Source of the DNA: Peristeroidobacter agariperforans
Lineage (GTDB): Bacteria > Pseudomonadota > Gammaproteobacteria > Steroidobacterales > Steroidobacteraceae
DNA: 64,000 nucleotides
NCBI RefSeq assembly: GCF_004138335.1
Contig: NZ_RYFW01000001.1
Span: forward strand, 1 to 64,000
Direction of reading: 5' to 3'
The translations under genes were made by a program, and so were the position numbers. Below are positions 2,305 through 56,430 of this stretch, one piece after another. Below the pieces are notes generated by a model. It had not been told where the DNA came from. It was given only the letters and a program-made list of their open reading frames with translations, and did not search any database. Every line of letters starts with the position of its first letter. Positions within the stretch are counted from its first letter, which is position 1.

Positions 2305-3867
2305 CTAACGAACAGGGGGCCTGTCTTTCGACCGACCCTGGCGTGAAAGCTCGATCAACGCCTGCGCCAACCACGCCTTCTCTGTGCGGGGCGGCGGCAT
2401 TTGATTGACGAACCTTCTTACCTCCTCCGCCAGCTGATGCTGCCCGTCAACAAGCAGCCGATCCCGAATGGCGCTCCACCCGCTCACGACCTCCCTTCTC
2501 GTTTGCTTCAGGGGCGCAGCGCCCGATCCATCCAACAAGCCAGCTTTCAGCTCACGAGCGACCTCGCGTACTCGCGCAGCGATGTGCGACGACTCGCCAC
2601 GCTGAGCCGCTCTGAAAATTGAATCCAGCTTCGGCGCCCGGCTCTGCCCGCGAACGCTTCGCTCGGTCGCATTCGCCTCCACCCCATGCTCCCGCAGGTG
2701 GCGCGCAAACTCCTGGCGCCAGTGCCGCAGCGTGGCCTTGTGAATATTCAGTCGCACGCCGGCCTCACTGACCGCTTTCACGACCACATGTACATGCGGG
2801 TGGGGTTCATCCGTATGCAGCACCATAGCGTATCGATGCTGGAGCCCAAACTCCTCTCGGGCGAAGTCGCGGACGGCCGCGAGCACCTTCTTGGGTGGCG
2901 TGCCGGCCGGCATGGAGAAGATCAGCTTGTGGACCAGCTTCGGCGAGGCCCGCCGATTCGTCGCGAAGAGGTCCGGCCGCTCTCGATCTTCGTCCAGGTC
3001 CAGGTCCCAGTCGTGGATCAGATGCCGCCCAACGCCCCGGCCACTCAGGCGCTCGCCGTCGTCCGTCTCAATCTCAAGGTCACCCCGCCGGCCGATGTAA
3101 TCGAAATGGGCGTTGACGCCATGACTGGTATTGGCGCCACCGCCGCCGGTCACCTTGACCATCACCTCGGGCGTATGGCGCACGGTGCGGGCGATGAGCG
3201 CCACCTCCGCGGGAGACAACCGGTCGCGCTGTCCCGGTCCTCGACGAGCGTAGCTCGTCAGGTCCCATATGGCTCCGCTGCGATCAAGATGGAACGTTCC
3301 CATGGCCGACCCTCCATGACCCGGCTGGTGATGAGCCAGGCGAGTTAGCTGGTTGAGGTTGCGGCCGATCGCTCCCAGCTCCGCGACGGATCGCTTGAGC
3401 GCCATCAACTCCGCTTTGGGCAAGGGAGCAAGATCCCGCAGGTGGGCCCGGACCAGGACGGAGACATACGTGGCCGCCGGCATCTGCCGAGCTGCAGCTC
3501 GCTCCATAAGTAGCAACTGGTCTTCTGGATGTAGCCGGACATACAACCGCGCCGCTCGCAATCGCCGCCCTGGCGACCTCAGGACATCGCCGTCGGCGTG
3601 GCTCACTCGCTGCACGCTCAGCTCAATGAGCTGCTTCAAAAGCGCCGACTCCGTCATCTGCTGATGTTCCGCGAGCCATTGTGTCGGCCGCACACTCTCG
3701 GTACTTCTGAGGCAAGCCCTGCGTGCATCGTGAGCGCAGAGCGCATCGCTGCCCGATATCGCGCGCATCTTCTGCCGCGCTGGCATGACTTTCCCGCGTA
3801 CTGGAACAATCTCCTCATGGCCGCGCGCGACAACGATGAAGCGGCCCTCGAGGAATCTCGTCTCCAC
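2305..3867 (-). CDS. Relaxase with fused MobC-like N-terminal domain
   Basis: 520 residues, two parts in one frame. Residues about 100-180 (RLYVRLHPEDQLLLMERAAA to IGRNLNQLTRLAHH) match the MobC/relaxosome accessory type, a ribbon-helix-helix protein with the NLNQL motif. Residues about 189-400 match a MobA/VirD2-type relaxase: HFDYIGRRGDLEIETDDGER, then KLIFSMPAGT, then the metal-binding histidines in HTDEPHPHVHVVVK (H351, H356, H358, H360). Free-standing relaxases of this type begin close to the internal Met189, so the ORF looks like an in-frame fusion. It would nick oriT and pilot DNA. No T4SS genes are present, so the island is at most mobilisable. The first 70 residues are poorly supported and the true start may be internal. 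Confidence 0.85.
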   Translation of the reverse strand: METRFLEGRFIVVARGHEEIVPVRGKVMPARQKMRAISGSDALCAHDARRACLRSTESVRPTQWLAEHQQMTESALLKQLIELSVQRVSHADGDVLRSPGRRLRAARLYVRLHPEDQLLLMERAAARQMPAATYVSVLVRAHLRDLAPLPKAELMALKRSVAELGAIGRNLNQLTRLAHHQPGHGGSAMGTFHLDRSGAIWDLTSYARRGPGQRDRLSPAEVALIARTVRHTPEVMVKVTGGGGANTSHGVNAHFDYIGRRGDLEIETDDGERLSGRGVGRHLIHDWDLDLDEDRERPDLFATNRRASPKLVHKLIFSMPAGTPPKKVLAAVRDFAREEFGLQHRYAMVLHTDEPHPHVHVVVKAVSEAGVRLNIHKATLRHWRQEFARHLREHGVEANATERSVRGQSRAPKLDSIFRAAQRGESSHIAARVREVARELKAGLLDGSGAAPLKQTRREVVSGWSAIRDRLLVDGQHQLAEEVRRFVNQMPPPRTEKAWLAQALIELSRQGRSKDRPPVR

Positions 3868-3939
3868 GGGGTGCTCATGATCGGCGGTGCGCTGCTGCCT
3901 TTATTGGAGGGCAAGGCGGTATGAGCATCGTCCGAGTCC

Positions 3940-4581
3940 TCACGTTGAAACAAACGCGAGCCGTTCCCGCATCAAGGCGCAGTATTTCTGGTCGAGCTCG
4001 ATGCCGAGATATCTCCGACCAGTGATCTGTGCCGCGACCAGCGTACTGCCGGAGCCGGCAAAGGGATCCAGCACCAACTGTCCGGACTGCGAGAAGGTCT
4101 CGATGAGCGGCGTGAGGATGCGCACCGCCTTCTGTGTCGGATGATCCGTGTTACCGGAATACAGCCAGGTCTGGATGTCATCGAGCGGCCTGCTTGGCAG
4201 TGACGGCTGCCCCTTCGCGAGCAGGTACGCTGACTCGTGTCTGTAGCGCAGGAAACGTTCGCGCGAGGCGTAGTCCTTGACCCAGACGATATGGCCCACG
4301 GGTTTGAAACCTGCACGGCGCCAGGCGCGAAAGAAATCATCGACCAAGCCCCACCCGTAGAACGAAATGCACACGCTGTTGGGCTTCAGAACTCGGTACA
4401 GATCGGTGAAGGCGCCGAGGATGCGGTTGGGATCATCGTCATTGGCGACGGTGCGGCCGAGGCGGTCTTGATAGCGAACACCGTACGGCGGATCGGTCAC
4501 GATCAAGTCGACGAAGGCATCCGGCAGTTGTTTTAGCACGCGGGTGCAATCACCGTGCAGGATCTCGTTGCTCGGGAACAT
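3940..4581 (-). CDS. Orphan DNA (adenine-N6 or cytosine-N4) methyltransferase, beta class
   Basis: 213 residues from the chosen start (MFPSNEILHGDC), with GGAG about nine bases upstream. An upstream in-frame ATG at 4629 is an alternative. Motif IV DPPY is at residues 30-33 and the AdoMet motif DPFAGSGSTLVAA is near the C-terminus, so the order is beta class, typical of site-specific modification enzymes such as solitary phage or plasmid methylases. HPTQKAVRILTPLIE is the usual segment before the AdoMet motif. No cognate restriction gene is adjacent, so it likely protects the mobile DNA or regulates it. The leader upstream contains palindrome copy A. Confidence 0.9.
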   Translation of the reverse strand: MFPSNEILHGDCTRVLKQLPDAFVDLIVTDPPYGVRYQDRLGRTVANDDDPNRILGAFTDLYRVLKPNSVCISFYGWGLVDDFFRAWRRAGFKPVGHIVWVKDYASRERFLRYRHESAYLLAKGQPSLPSRPLDDIQTWLYSGNTDHPTQKAVRILTPLIETFSQSGQLVLDPFAGSGSTLVAAQITGRRYLGIELDQKYCALMRERLAFVST

Positions 4582-4643
4582 GGCAGTGACTCCAGTGAGC
4601 TCGGCGGCTTGCCGATGCGTGTCCCCCATCACGTCGCGCGCAG

Positions 4644-4750
4644 CCGTCAACTGAGAGATGGCGAGTCCGTGGAATAAATGGCGGGGACCCGCGTCTTCGC
4701 GGGGTGGCGGCCGTTTATGCCGCGAAAGCTCGCCGTGTCTCGGTTGACGG
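4644..4750. repeat. 107-bp palindromic element, copy A (attC-like hairpin)
   Basis: Long imperfect hairpin. The outer arm CCGTCAACTGAGA (4644-4656) pairs with TCTCGGTTGACGG (4738-4750), and GGCGAG pairs with CTCGCC inside it. A conserved core follows, with ATAAATGGC opposite GCCGTTTAT and CCCGCG/CGCGGG around a TCTT tip. Copy B has the same core but different arm sequences that still pair. The element ends 62 bases before the methyltransferase ATG. Confidence 0.8.
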
Positions 4751-4950
4751 GGAGCACGACGTGATACGCTGGACCAGCATAGGCAAGCCCCACACTCTTC
4801 TCCTCCTCTTGATGTTTTCGCTCCCGCATTCTCGGCGTCCTGCTGCTCAGGAGCGCAAGGTGTGGCCGACGTGGCAATGAGCGGTTGTATCCTCAGTCGA
4901 GAAAATCGAGGCTGCAGCACCAAATGCGTGCCGCAGCCCCGATGTCTACG

Positions 4951-5181
4951 TCACCGAGCTTTCAAGCGATGAAGCACGACCACTGCGCCATATAGCGCCG
5001 TGACGTCTTCCAGGATTGCATCCAACCCAAACACCGTACCAATCGCCTCGTTGTGTTGACCGCATTGACTGAGCAGGCAGGCCTCAGCACTCTGCTTCGT
5101 TGCAACTGCAAGCAACGCTTGCATCGCTTTGAGGTTGGCGGTCACTGCTTGAACCTTGACCTCGGCCGGCATGGCGCTCAT
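4951..5181 (-). CDS. Small protein of unknown function in a palindrome-bounded cassette
   Basis: 76 residues beginning MSAMPAEVKVQAVTANLKAM, mostly helical, with two Cys (ACLLSQCGQ). The start is well supported by AAGGAG seven bases upstream of the ATG. No family is recognised. It lies between palindrome copies B (its own leader) and A (the leader of the next gene), in the same orientation as the methyltransferase. The arrangement resembles a gene cassette. Confidence 0.6.
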   Translation of the reverse strand: MSAMPAEVKVQAVTANLKAMQALLAVATKQSAEACLLSQCGQHNEAIGTVFGLDAILEDVTALYGAVVVLHRLKAR

Positions 5182-5247
5182 GAGAGTCTCCTTGGGAATG
5201 TTCGTCGGCGGGAGTGCCGACGCGTCCCCGCACCACGGCGCGCACAG

Positions 5248-5355
5248 CGGTCAAGGTGACGGTCGCGGAACCGTGGAATAAATGGCTCGACGACCCGCGT
5301 CCTCGCGGGGTGGCGCCGTTTATGCCGCGAAAGTCCGCGGCCGTTGCCTTGACCG
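5248..5355. repeat. 108-bp palindromic element, copy B (attC-like hairpin)
   Basis: Same architecture as the copy at 4644-4750. The outer arm CGGTCAAGG (5248-5256) pairs with CCTTGACCG (5347-5355), then ACGG/CCGT and CGCGG/CCGCG, around the shared core CCGTGGAATAAATGGC to GCCGTTTATGCCGCGAAAG. Arm bases differ between the copies yet remain complementary, which argues for a selected structure. It ends 66 bases before the 76-residue gene, and its outer edge coincides with the predicted 3' end of the group II intron. Confidence 0.8.
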
Positions 5356-5505
5356 GTAGAGTCGAGATGTGGCGCGGTGGCGTTTAGGATCTTCTCAACT
5401 GTTGCCGCCCCTTTCGGTTGGCGGTGCCTCAATTGAAGATCCTTGACTCCGTTTCCACATCCCGCTCATCGAACCGGACTGGCAGATTTCCCGCATCCGG
5501 CTCTC
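5356..5505 (-). ncRNA. Group II intron domains V and VI (3' end of intron)
   Basis: On the minus strand, domain V lies at 5503-5471: GAGCCGGATGCGGGAAATCT followed by GCCAGTCCGGTTC, the standard AGC-containing catalytic hairpin. Domain VI follows. GAG-CGG-GATGTGG (5467-5455) pairs with CCACATC-TCG-A-CTC (5373-5359), with a bulged A at 5362, the expected branch point. The intron should end with TAC at 5356, seven bases from the branch, matching the usual AY end. Domain VI is unusually long because a 56-base hairpin (5387-5442, GGATCTTC arms) is inserted in it. Confidence 0.85.
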
Positions 5506-5515
5506 GGACGAGAAC

Positions 5516-6313
5516 TCATGTTTTCGCCCACGGGAGATTACGCGTCAGCAGAGGCATTCGGACCAGACCGAGATCGCGATGAAGCGCCTCGTTCGTCCAG
5601 CGTCTTGCGCTCGGATGTTTGTCACGTAACCAGCGGCGGAGCCGAGTTGTGGTGTATCGGTCAATCAACTGATACGACCGCCCGACCGGACCCAATTTGA
5701 AGTAGTTGGCCCAACCGTACAGTGATCGATTGATCCCGAGAACCACGGTCTCGGCCGCCAGCCAGGTGCGGTTGTGCGCCGTCTGCTCGCCTATATTTGC
5801 GAGCAATCGTTGCACACTCTTCTTGGACGGGCGCGTGCCGATGAAGGCCCGCCCATTCCGCGTCGAGTAACACCGGCCGAACGTATAACCTAAGAAGTCG
5901 AAGTGCTCTTCCGGCACGCGACAAATGTGAGTCTTGCGCTCGTTTACCGTCAGCTTCAGCCGCGTCATGATGAGCCGCATCGCGTGCAATGCCTGTTCGG
6001 CACTACCTTTGCAGCAGATCACCAAATCATCGGCATAGGTAACAACGCGCGCCCCGAGGCGTCGCTCGTATCCCAAGTGCTTCCACCCCATCACAAACCG
6101 CCGCATGTAGATATTCGACAGCAGCGGCGATAGCGGTGAACCTTGAGGCGTGCCACGCTTCTCGTCGCGGTTTTGGGTCGTACGCTGCGTTCGTCCACGC
6201 TCGTCTGTTTCCTCCACGGGCGCATGCAGCCACATCTTGATCAACATCATGCGTAACAACGACTGAAAGTCCATAGGGTGAACCCGACGGCCTGCGCTGA
6301 ATGCTGGCGCCAC
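5516..6313 (-). pseudogene. Group II intron reverse transcriptase/maturase, 5'-truncated
   Basis: The readable part starts near the RT3/4 junction (LLRMMLIKMWLHAPVEE), continues through RGTPQGSPLSPLLSNIYMRR and the catalytic YADD box (VTYADDLVICC), then FLGYTFGR, the thumb and maturase X domain (LYGWANYF), and ends [17 protein letters not shown]. There is no C-terminal HNH endonuclease domain. A full maturase has about 150 more residues before this, including the first catalytic Asp. None of the frames upstream of about 6280 encode them, so the intron lost its 5' part and should be immobile. Domains V and VI follow the stop codon directly. Confidence 0.88.
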
Positions 6314-10578: not shown

Positions 10579-11424
10579 ATGTCCCAGTTCGAGCTGCCCG
10601 GCTGGGCGAAGCTACCGCGCGCGCATCTGCTCCACGAGAATCACTTCCGGGGCCTCGGGCTGCGCGGCGCGGCCGCCCTCAATGCGCTGAAGCTGTATCT
10701 GGCGCTGGTGACCTTCCGACCGAACCAGTCGCGGCATGTGCTGCTCTCCTACGATCGCATCGAGCACTACACCGGGATCCCCCGACCACGCATCCGGCAC
10801 GCGATCGATGTGCTGCTCAACCACGATTGGATTTCGATCGGCACACACGGGGTCGCGTCGATCGCGGCCGAGGTCAACGAGCATCGCAAGCCCACCAATG
10901 TTTATATCTTGCGCGGCGATTTTTGGGGCCGCCCCCAGCAGACCTATCCGCGTGCCGCCGTCGCCGTCGAGCCGCCCTTCTATGCTTGCAGGCCGGCATG
11001 GCCCTGCGGGCGGCACGGACCTGCGGGCGGCAAGCTATGCTGGTCGCAGGCCCGTGCCGATCAGCAACGCGGTGTTGGAGCTTGCAAGCGACGACTGTCT
11101 TCGTGGTGCCGGCCGCAGGCCCCCCTAGACTGGCTTCGAGTTCGTCTCCCGCCGGACCTGCTCAAAGATTTCTTCGCGGTGAACCGCGACGTCCTCCGGT
11201 GCCTCGGTGCCGATTCGCACCTGGTTGCCTTTCACGCCGAGCACGACCACGGTGATGTCGGCGCCGATGTGAATGGCCTCGCCAACCCGTCGCGTCAAAA
11301 TGAGCATCGTTTAACGTCCCTGAATCGATCCGTTACGCCGGACCGTGCGGGCGAGGACTGTAGACCGATGGCTTGCCATGCTGAGATAAATCGCTGGCCA
11401 CATCGCTGGAAATTCATCGACTGA
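10579..11424 (+). pseudogene. Winged-helix (plasmid Rep-like) protein, half-length copy with run-on tail
   Basis: Residues 1-130 (MSQFELPGWAKLPRAHLL to PTNVYILRGDFWGR) align closely with the second half of the 230-residue protein at 57351: WAKLPRAHLL, ALKLYLALV, LLSYDRIEHYTGIPRPRIRH and AIDVLLN are shared. The first winged-helix half is absent and is replaced by the antisense of the truncated flavoprotein. After GDFWGR the frame runs on, without resemblance to the paralogue, into the antisense of csrA. The natural stop therefore seems lost. Confidence 0.55.
11125..11307 (-). CDS. csrA: CsrA/RsmA family translational regulator
   Basis: 60 residues of full CsrA length: [20 protein letters not shown], then [20 protein letters not shown], then [11 protein letters not shown]. 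The RNA-contacting N-terminal LILTRR and the Arg of VHREEI are both present. CsrA dimers bind GGA-containing hairpins in mRNA leaders and block or stabilise translation. A copy in accessory DNA is probably in addition to the chromosomal one, as seen on ICEs and phages, and may tune the island or the host. It lies antisense to the run-on tail of the winged-helix ORF. Confidence 0.95.
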
Positions 11425-53579: not shown

Positions 53580-56430
53580 TGACGAGCTCACAGCGAGAGA
53601 AAAGATCGGCGTCCGAGAGCGAGAGATACGGGGCCGCTTTCTCACCGTTCAACGTCACGACGATTAACACGGCGTCGCCCGAGGCGCTCACTTCGTCGAC
53701 GGGCATCTTGAATGAGCTGCTCGCATCGCGAAGGTGCCATCCTTTTGTCGGCAGTGCCTCCCCTGAGAGGATGAACGTGATGAGGAGGCGAGAGGGTCCC
53801 CGGCGCACGAATCGAGCGAGCGTGCGGCCATCTTGGGCCCCACTCCGAGCGAGGCCAGCCGCCGACATCAGCAGCGCGGCACGCCCCCGAGTGAGTTCGA
53901 TGTCCGCGGACTTCGTGTTCGTCTCGAGCGTGCGCATTTGCAGCGCGAAGTCTTCCAGTCCGTCTCGCGCGCCCAACTGACAGTCCGCGTACAACGCGCC
54001 GGAATCGTACGCGAACGTCATCTCCTGGATGATCGGCTGGTTCGTTCCCTCGAACGCCGCTAGGGCCTGCATGTCGAGTGTCCGAGCCGCCACCGCGTCC
54101 ATCGTGGCACGCTCGGTTTCGACGCTTGCGAGCATCACCGTTGGACTCTTAGCTTCTGCGGATACGGCGAATTTGGCGGGCGCGAAGATCGCGGCGTTGA
54201 ACTTCAACAGCGGCTTGGACTCCGGCTTCATAGGCAGCGTCGCCTTCGCAAGTGCAGGCGCCTCCCCGCGGGCGACCTCGTAGTCGGCAGCGATCGCCTC
54301 GCGTAGGCTTCGCGTGACCTCCGCGCCAAGCTCCGCGCGGCGAGCCGGGTCAATGTCGAATCCATACTGCGCATTGGCGAGGTAGTCCCCCATCGCCTGC
54401 ATCTCCTCGGCCGTTTTGCGGAACGTTCGTCTCACTCGAAGGCCGGTACCTTCGATCAATTCGGGACCTGCCTCGACGACGCACGAAAAATCGCTTAGAT
54501 ATAGGGCGCTTCGATACTCATTCATCAGCCTGAAGATGAGAATGTTGAGCGTCCTGCCGGTGTTGATGTTCGAAACCTTGTAGGAGGTGGAGTCGCTCAG
54601 GCTCTCCTTGATGCTCGAACTCATCGAGACATTCACCTCCTGACGGCGCTTGGAGGTGATCTCACTCGAGGCGCGTTGGACCGCCCGGTTGAGCGTTCTC
54701 GCGACATCCCGCGTGCGCTGGGTCTGTGAAAAGCTCGCGCCACCCGAGACCATTCCGCCGTAGGAGCCGGACGCCTCAGCGCTCATCGTTCGAGTCTTCT
54801 CAGCTTCCTTGGTTATCTCCGACTCGAAGGTCGACTCGAAATCCTGGCGCGTGACCGTGTTGAGCTCCAGGATCGAGCCGCTGCTCTCGGTTCGTGAGTT
54901 CTCCTTGCTGACCGAGCGCGTGATGGTGACCGATCGCTCCTCACCGGGCGCGAGTGGAATATTTGCAGCGAGCTCTCCCAAGCGCACGCCCTGCCAAGCA
55001 AAGCGATAGGTCAGTTGTTCGTTGACGAATATGGAGGGTGGCGCGCTCGGCAGGATGGCCGGTAGCGGGCGGAAATAGAAACGATAGCCGCGCACGATGG
55101 GATTGCCGTGCAACGTATCCTCGAGCGTCGGAATGCCGACGACACATCGACGTCGGTAACCTTCATCCCGCGCGCACTGCTCGACGACCTCGGCAAGGGT
55201 GCGACCGTCCTCAGCGACGAAACCATCCGCCGTCGATCGCATCATCGCCACATCGAAACCATCCGCTTGGTACTGCGCCACGGCCTCCACCCACGGGTCC
55301 CAATCGGGTGTCACGCGTTCGTAATACTGAAAGACGTGCGTGTTCAGCTGCCTTCGGCGCTTTTTCTTTCCGTACCAAGTGTAACCATTGTGATGCGTCG
55401 TCCACCAGGAGGCGCTTTTTGGATACTTATAATTGAGCGCGCCTGGCTCGAGCGAGACCTTCTGGGGCTGCGCACTGCCATCGTGAAAGTGCTCGACAGT
55501 CATCTTCTCGGTGATGAGTTCGTAGCGTAGCGAGGCCGCGCGGTCACGTAGGACATCCGCCATTCCGAGCAACTCCTCGTTGGAGGCGAGCTCGACGTAG
55601 CGCTGGGAAATCTCGGCCCAGGCCTCCGAGGACAAATTCTCCTTGACCGCGGCGTCGAGCATGCCCTGGGCCGCGCCGCGCCGCGCTGTCGCCGTCGCGT
55701 TCTTGATGGAGAAGCGATTCCACTCGCGGATGATGTGCGCCGCCGCCGCATCGACCTCGTCCATGGCGGAAAAACTGCGCACCGCCTCCGTCGCCGCCGC
55801 CTGAATGCCCTCGGGCTTCAGCGCGACGTACACCTGCTGCAGCCCCCGCACGCGTGTCCAGGAATCCACGTGCGCGGAGTGACTCGGATCGCGCAGGGCA
55901 TCATCCCTGAAGTACTCGACCTTGCCATGCACCGACAGACCAAAGGGAAGGAAATAGCGGTCGATGGACGCGGTCGGAAGGCGCAGCACGCACACGGTGC
56001 CAATTCCCTTGAGGTCGACGTGGCGCTTGGCGTACGGGGCCCTCCGTGCGGTGAGCCCCTCCACGCGAATGGGAAACTTCTTCTCCGCGATTTGCTTCTG
56101 AACGCCTTCGGACACGGCGACCACGCTTGCAAGATCGGGAAGGAAGATCTGCTCCCCAGGCAGCATCACTGCCCGATCCTCCTTCGCGACGGTCACCCAG
56201 TGCGTCATGAAGTGTCGCTGCAAGTATTCGCCGGGCAAGTGCCCATCCGCGGCGCTCAGCGCGGCAGCCGCCGCCTTATCCACAAAGGGTCCAACGACGT
56301 CCCGCCAGGGAACATCCACGAACTTGCTACGCTCGAAGTGAAATCCCGTCGACATGCTCTCGAGCGACGTGGGACCGCCCAGGGCCATCACGTCGGCGAG
56401 TTCGGAGGACAGGCGCATCATATCCATCAT
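53572..56430 (-). CDS. Large uncharacterised protein, 952 residues (first gene of operon)
   Basis: Start chosen at the ATG at 56430; AAGGAG is only three bases away, so the ATG three bases on may be used. There is no signal peptide. The middle (about 480-650) is distinctive: LAPGEERSVTITRSVSKENS, a long Ser/Thr/Glu-rich helical stretch (SEITKEAEKTRTMSAEASGS) and repeats rich in Ser and Thr such as NVSMSSSIKESLSDSTSYKV, which resemble shaft or self-associating segments. A conserved-looking RTLNILIFRLMNEYRSALYL follows. I know no matching family. Length, repeats and the two membrane-type partners could fit an injection, toxin or surface complex, but this is inference. Confidence 0.6.
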   Translation of the reverse strand: MMDMMRLSSELADVMALGGPTSLESMSTGFHFERSKFVDVPWRDVVGPFVDKAAAAALSAADGHLPGEYLQRHFMTHWVTVAKEDRAVMLPGEQIFLPDLASVVAVSEGVQKQIAEKKFPIRVEGLTARRAPYAKRHVDLKGIGTVCVLRLPTASIDRYFLPFGLSVHGKVEYFRDDALRDPSHSAHVDSWTRVRGLQQVYVALKPEGIQAAATEAVRSFSAMDEVDAAAAHIIREWNRFSIKNATATARRGAAQGMLDAAVKENLSSEAWAEISQRYVELASNEELLGMADVLRDRAASLRYELITEKMTVEHFHDGSAQPQKVSLEPGALNYKYPKSASWWTTHHNGYTWYGKKKRRRQLNTHVFQYYERVTPDWDPWVEAVAQYQADGFDVAMMRSTADGFVAEDGRTLAEVVEQCARDEGYRRRCVVGIPTLEDTLHGNPIVRGYRFYFRPLPAILPSAPPSIFVNEQLTYRFAWQGVRLGELAANIPLAPGEERSVTITRSVSKENSRTESSGSILELNTVTRQDFESTFESEITKEAEKTRTMSAEASGSYGGMVSGGASFSQTQRTRDVARTLNRAVQRASSEITSKRRQEVNVSMSSSIKESLSDSTSYKVSNINTGRTLNILIFRLMNEYRSALYLSDFSCVVEAGPELIEGTGLRVRRTFRKTAEEMQAMGDYLANAQYGFDIDPARRAELGAEVTRSLREAIAADYEVARGEAPALAKATLPMKPESKPLLKFNAAIFAPAKFAVSAEAKSPTVMLASVETERATMDAVAARTLDMQALAAFEGTNQPIIQEMTFAYDSGALYADCQLGARDGLEDFALQMRTLETNTKSADIELTRGRAALLMSAAGLARSGAQDGRTLARFVRRGPSRLLITFILSGEALPTKGWHLRDASSSFKMPVDEVSASGDAVLIVVTLNGEKAAPYLSLSDADLFSRCELVNE

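Follow-up and report, generated by a model that had tools for sequence, protein, structure and literature searches.

Covarying hairpins in a degraded conjugative element of Peristeroidobacter agariperforans are probable single-stranded-DNA promoters

What is the role of two palindromes that covary and precede two unrelated genes of Peristeroidobacter agariperforans? The window, that is, the whole stretch of 64,000 nucleotides analysed here (contig NZ_RYFW01000001.1, positions 1 to 64,000), carries two such palindromes, A (4644-4750) and B (5248-5355). An earlier sequence-only reading had placed them 62 and 66 nt before their genes within a repeat unit of about 150 bp, and had suggested either sites of a cassette recombination system or structured mRNA leaders. 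The copies exist as it described them, and its distances, the location before unrelated genes and the rough size of the repeat unit are all correct; the palindromes themselves are there too, spanning about 140 nt (ATCACG..CGTGAT) instead of the 107-108 bp that it gave. The answer that we consider highly probable is that both are promoters of the single-stranded-DNA type, like the Frpo promoters of plasmid F, and belong to the leading region of a conjugative element that has integrated. Each would most likely be active as long as the incoming DNA has no second strand, and not afterwards. The features of the window on which this argument draws are the following.

2305..3867, minus strand: MobA/VirD2-type relaxase with a NikA-like N-terminal part in one frame (PF03432 above cut-off; PF21983 E 1.7e-4, below cut-off)
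3940..4581, minus strand: orphan N6/N4 DNA methyltransferase, adjoining hairpin A (PF01555 on frame 3940-4923)
4626..4773, plus strand: hairpin A, candidate single-strand promoter of the methyltransferase gene (R1 match E 3.3e-38, fold z -6.1)
4744..4749, plus strand: -35-like hexamer TTGACG in the 3' arm of hairpin A (sequence; related copies, same place)
4765..4770, plus strand: -10-like hexamer TACGCT of hairpin A (sequence; TTGACN-15-TASGCT in related copies)
4951..5181, minus strand: 76-aa gene, adjoining hairpin B (54% to an 82-aa gene in L020)
5230..5355, plus strand: hairpin B, candidate promoter of the 76-aa gene (sequence, Rfam intron match, R1)
5356..6313, minus strand: group II intron fragment abutting hairpin B (RF00029, RVT_1, GIIM)
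5356-5505, minus strand: intron domains DV/DVI (RF00029 41.9 bits, gathering 40)
5516-6313, minus strand: intron RT/maturase fragment (RVT_1 and GIIM)

Both adjoining genes lie on the minus strand. The 76-aa gene matched no Pfam family, and a relative of the methyltransferase in locus L020 scored above the cut-off of NF010253/PRK13699. The conjugative element of the window is degraded (3867-3960): the C-terminus of its methyltransferase is shorter than in L021, and the nic-like site described below is missing upstream of nikA. Hairpin A is identical to L021:9528-9675, and an uncut copy of hairpin B is found in the same-genus genome at L021:8923-9071. In the window, the 3' end of the intron fragment abuts hairpin B at 5355/5356, cutting it after TTGACCG, with the loss of the -10. 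Group II introns entered these hairpins twice, at different points, once in the window (5356-6313) and once at L027:9355-9432 / L028:9530-9679, which by eye look like two halves of one intron-split hairpin at contig ends of the same genome. Small CsrA-like reading frames were also seen by eye, in the window (11125-11307) and, near conjugation genes, in L022 (8021-8479).

When folded as single-stranded DNA, the plus strands of A and B did better than 200/200 dinucleotide shuffles (z -6.1 and -6.5), with weaker folding of the minus strands (z -3.8 and -3.1; 2/200 shuffles each). The claim that the palindromes covary and are selected for structure was borne out by an alignment of 11 copies from the genus, nine of them joined by two from genome G001, one with the sequence of A and one matching B exactly wherever B is uncut: in 18 of the 51 base pairs both partners have changed and still pair, 94% of the cells are paired, and 0/500 shuffles reached any of five measures.

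BLAST with A found four copies in its own genome. Two of them lie outside the window, each ahead of a relative of the window methyltransferase but among other genes. R1, a covariance model of the hairpins, matched 9/14 genomes of the genus and 12/296 genomes of the order, corresponding to 8/68 genera (the E value of 3.3e-38 for hairpin A is so by construction, because the identical G001 copy sits in R1). In other genera and in one other family, this search revealed a short form of about 100 nt that lacks the central module. The exact 3'-end pattern occurs in nine stretches, from contigs of Povalibacter uvarum, Peristeroidobacter soli and metagenome genomes labelled Steroidobacter, Steroidobacteraceae, Chromatiales and others. 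With R2, the model used for the searches across class and phylum, we obtained matches in 6/369 genomes of the class and 8/398 of the phylum, own genome included, a rarity that is expected because this is mobile DNA.

Several loci contain arrays of two to six hairpins, spaced mostly 0.5-1.5 kb apart, and the fuller loci are flanked by a T4SS coupling protein, LPD7/MobP1-like proteins, a NikA-like protein and a MOBP-type relaxase; we interpret these surroundings as those of a leading region in an integrated conjugative element. The genes that follow related hairpins differ, and include orphan DNA methyltransferases, DUF932 genes and small ORFs. The sequence-only reading had named, as what would speak against it, a lack of other copies or copies always found with the same two genes; neither is the case, as at least five gene families follow related hairpins in other genomes. 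We chose 48 hairpins from 107 R1 matches (E up to 0.043, stronger strand of each hairpin) and searched beside them for homologues of five query genes (methyltransferase, DUF932, s82, g109 and g127). Twenty-two had one on the expected side, 22/22 in the expected orientation, with the aligned gene start 10-234 nt from the hairpin match and one overlapping it; the remaining 26 had none of the five on that side. A further stretch, L078, was left out of the analysis as unrelated.

The orientation of the hairpins relative to the relaxase gene was uniform. All 20 loci that have both nikA and hairpins carry the hairpins on the opposite strand and on the upstream side of nikA (48/48 hairpins), counts that are not independent events because some loci are related (for example window/L021 and L064/L065). 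In 18/20 loci the 300 nt upstream of nikA contain the nic-like motif TATCCTGY on the hairpin strand, although these are again not independent since the positions of nic and nikA are linked within one relaxase family; on the other strand of the same interval it is found in 0/20, and 500 shuffles give 2 at most. The two loci without it upstream of nikA are the window and L030; in L020 and L064 nic-like motifs also occur on the other strand, inside or beyond the relaxase gene. The hairpins therefore occupy a leading-region, non-coding site upstream of nikA and beyond the nic-like site, next to the predicted oriT. In keeping with the known polarity of such relaxases, the nicked strand would leave toward the hairpins. 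Given this opposition to nikA and the position of TATCCTGY, the folded strand is the predicted transferred strand (T-strand) and the template of the adjacent gene; judging from the nic-like motif, it is predicted to be the plus strand of the window.

The 3' arm of most copies carries, at one fixed place, TTGACN, 15 nt and TASGCT, the latter beginning at the stem base in most of them. In hairpin A, TACGCT is preceded by TGA, as in an extended -10, and sits at and just outside the stem base. The -10 is weak, and the spacer is 15 in Steroidobacter-type copies versus the usual 17. In duplex DNA the hexamers point away from the adjacent gene; folding of the strand turns them toward it. The promoter score of the 3' arm exceeded that of the mirrored 5' arm in 58/63 copies, a result that is partly circular because R1 was trained on copies with these hexamers, and 5/63 did not favour the 3' arm; the 63 are the 81 R1 matches minus 16 reverse-strand matches of the same hairpins and minus the two window copies, of which A is identical to its L021 counterpart and B is intron-cut. 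The 3' arm was also favoured by 10/12 plasmid copies found by BLAST. Among the 26 copies that have the central module, a TTG with a properly spaced -10 was present on the 3' side in 16/22 TTG-bearing tails and on the mirror side in 0/19; in the arm-family analysis described below, TTG with NANNNT at the proper spacing is missing from L093-L097, from one of the two L088 copies and from F. A second stem outside the main one, GGCGGGATTGCC with GGCAATCCCGCC, can close an internal loop, and in the 41 copies with TTGAC-type ends its pairing beat all 20 shuffles in only 24. On prediction, then, the T-strand folds and displays a -35 and a -10 that read into the adjacent gene.

These features suggest the following model. 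The T-strand (plus strand of the window) would enter the recipient with the oriT-adjacent region first. Each hairpin would fold on it and rebuild a duplex promoter, with the -35 (TTGACN) in the stem and the TG-extended -10 (TASGCT) at the open stem base, often in an internal loop closed by the outer stem, much as in a bubble melted in advance. Starting at the folded hairpin, the RNA polymerase of the host would copy the T-strand toward oriT, so that the adjacent gene would be expressed in the recipient before second-strand synthesis; in duplex DNA the hairpin would be gone and the hexamers would face away from the gene, which would thus be silent. Repeated before several genes, the hairpin would create a modular array of establishment genes.

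There are precedents for such a promoter: Frpo1 and Frpo2 of F and ssi1-3 of the IncI1 plasmids, as presented in PMC9849209, PMC11541004 and PMC10104558, and by Masai and Arai 1997 as cited there. They too lie in the leading region, rebuild a -35 and a -10 in a T-strand hairpin and drive operons that read toward oriT; the F leading region, like the hairpin loci, also has a DNA methylase and a DUF932 gene. In contrast, taking Frpo1/2 to be the F repeats, R1 gave only 10.9 bits (E 4.3) near Frpo1 and no match with E<1 at Frpo1/2, so the hairpins would work like Frpo without shown homology. According to PMC7736820, the methyltransferase M.EcoGIX lies behind an Frpo (ssi) promoter, M.BceJIII comes from a Burkholderia cenocepacia J2315 plasmid, and both are silent in their original hosts. 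Single-strand promoters are, according to PMC11541004, known from a few enterobacterial plasmids and predicted more widely by similarity.

How far does the family extend? BLAST of one long copy against plasmids found its centre (query 67-137 among the matches listed) in 56 records, and the centre alone was found in 63. The hosts are Xanthomonas, Burkholderia, Eleftheria, Verminephrobacter, Paracoccus, Shinella, Citrobacter and Morganella, together with Actinobacteria, in Curtobacterium and Tomitella plasmids. The arms around the centre differ among plasmid copies yet pair, and CGTGGAATA and TATGCCGCGAAAG are nearly invariant across 16 diverse copies. The hairpins are a separate family with a nearly invariant core, searchable by pattern. 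They could serve to locate the leading region, to tell which strand is transferred and to point out early-expressed genes in conjugative elements of groups far from the enterobacterial models, Actinobacteria included. No description of the core CGTGGAATA...TATGCCGCGAAAG was found in the literature searched, mainly the main text of open-access papers. Two papers hold one of four core strings: in PMC12195874 it shares 12 letters with a CRISPR spacer, and the other paper is PMC10467102.

Several of the plasmid records have neighbours of leading-region type (ssb, DUF932, DNA methylase, ArdC-like or antirestriction genes), and others do not. Over the whole of F and ColIb-P9, R1 gave two matches with E<1 (0.0019 each), 97 nt upstream of a DNA methylase gene in each plasmid and distinct from Frpo1/2:

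L032:4001-4070, plasmid F about 54,000-54,069, strand opposite to the DNA methylase (R1)
L099:23713-23782, plasmid ColIb-P9, strand opposite to the DNA methylase (R1)

Since their sequences are identical, the two matches represent one origin. The site overlaps a listed hypothetical gene and carries no annotation as hairpin or promoter, and the F stretch that contains it is present in at least 5,000 plasmid records; recognition of folded single strands by RNA polymerase could be tested there, in plasmid F. On a B. cenocepacia J2315 plasmid, another form of the core precedes a DNA methyltransferase gene by about 90 nt; we infer that this gene is M.BceJIII. The core also precedes the leading-region methyltransferase gene of B. 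contaminans and, by eye, a methyltransferase-like ORF in Paracoccus. On a 30-kb Citrobacter plasmid, the core hairpin (L095:6984-7070) is found near Tn4401 with its carbapenemase gene.

One copy was taken from each of 14 arm families (14 of the 26 copies): with windows chosen after inspection of the data, TTG was found at +3-5 or +14-16 from GCGAAAG in 11, eight of them with a properly spaced NANNNT, against maxima of 5 and 2 in 5000 shuffle rounds. We also collapsed 79 tails from plasmids, elements and viral contigs into 44 clusters. TANNNT lies at +16/+26/+36 in 12 of them and at other phases in 0-4; within one base of these positions it is found in 17/44, against a shuffle mean of 3.9 and a maximum of 11. 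Because the hexamers are placed at steps of about 10 bp from the core, the core probably serves RNA polymerase or a partner as a point of contact, and the phasing probably reflects contact on the same face of the helix.

The core is not confined to plasmids. It was present in 45 IMG/VR stretches, on the majority coding strand in 39/45. In the 12 contigs with a Zot-like assembly ATPase (nine recognized by motif; L127, L138 and L164 by Pfam) it lies on the Zot strand in 12/12. The Zot strand is the strand packaged by filamentous phages. BLAST of a filamentous-phage-like hairpin against named phages returned 26 records, of which one microvirus and one 1.9-kb record had E 2e-4 and the other 24 were short matches outside the core (E 0.03); a second such query gave no match. 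It is tempting to see in CGTGGAATA...TATGCCGCGAAAG a general, cross-phylum recognition signal that guides bacterial RNA polymerase to single-stranded DNA. It would be shared by the conjugative plasmids and the integrated elements of both Proteobacteria and Actinobacteria, as well as by filamentous phages, a low-GC one included; it would lie on the strand that enters single and would set the start site by 10-bp phasing of the -35/-10 at +16, +26 or +36. We put this forward tentatively, giving it slightly less than even weight.

Some carriers of the core are of other kinds. The protein family search covered 14 of the 45 viral contigs, and six of these carry tailed-phage terminase or portal genes; one microvirus has the core on the strand opposite to its genes. 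Entry as a single strand is therefore no requirement for carrying the core, whose broader use may be priming. In the six terminase or portal contigs (L130, L132, L139, L150, L154 and L161) the core is on the coding strand; these are possibly satellites, or the core a replication priming site.

An alternative, which we regard as improbable, is that the hairpins serve single-strand initiation only, loading primase or RNA polymerase for second-strand priming while the genes are expressed otherwise. The need for priming is obvious in the filamentous-phage-like contigs, a small plasmid and the tailed-phage-like contigs that carry the core, and the hairpins resemble the minus-strand origin of M13 and the complementary-strand origin of G4 as single-strand sites that start RNA synthesis on incoming DNA. 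The M13 minus-strand origin is an RNA-polymerase hairpin, and CTG is the start triplet of primase. However, the M13 stretch had no R1 or R2 match and the G4 stretch no R2 match, and both an M13-type origin and a G4-type primase site were rejected on these grounds. Moreover, the -10-like hexamers keep the T, A and T of a -10 yet lose CTG (TAGAAT, TACCAT, TAGCAT), and priming alone gives no account of the repeated placement of hairpins 62-66 nt (window) or 10-234 nt (other loci) before genes. Frpo itself is described in PMC7736820 as a source of both primers and messages.

That the hairpins are instead RNA-level regulators, structured 5' leaders or terminators made from duplex DNA, is very unlikely, although they covary and stand upstream of genes. 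The T-strand folds better than its complement, the mRNA strand, in 26/26 central-module copies, and only slightly better in the short forms (23/30); the hexamers are on the T-strand, and no Rfam family reached its gathering score on the hairpins. The mRNA leader offered by the sequence-only reading was rejected on this strand bias.

The promoter reading is also to be preferred to cassette recombination, the least probable of these alternatives, in which folded bottom strands would be used by a tyrosine recombinase as in integrons. Here, as in integron attC sites, the strand that folds lies opposite to the genes, and like attC the hairpins are imperfect, with variable middles, lie between genes and accompany a gene order that varies among elements; unlike attC, the 41 copies with TTGAC-type ends all lack the outer boxes (RYYYAAC / GTTRRRY, 0/41; the missing GTTRRRY core had been seen already), and the geometry is that of promoters, since the hairpins go with gene starts, keep one orientation relative to nikA, conserve a -10-like hexamer outside the palindrome and, in L002 and L003, have a divergent gene on their far side.
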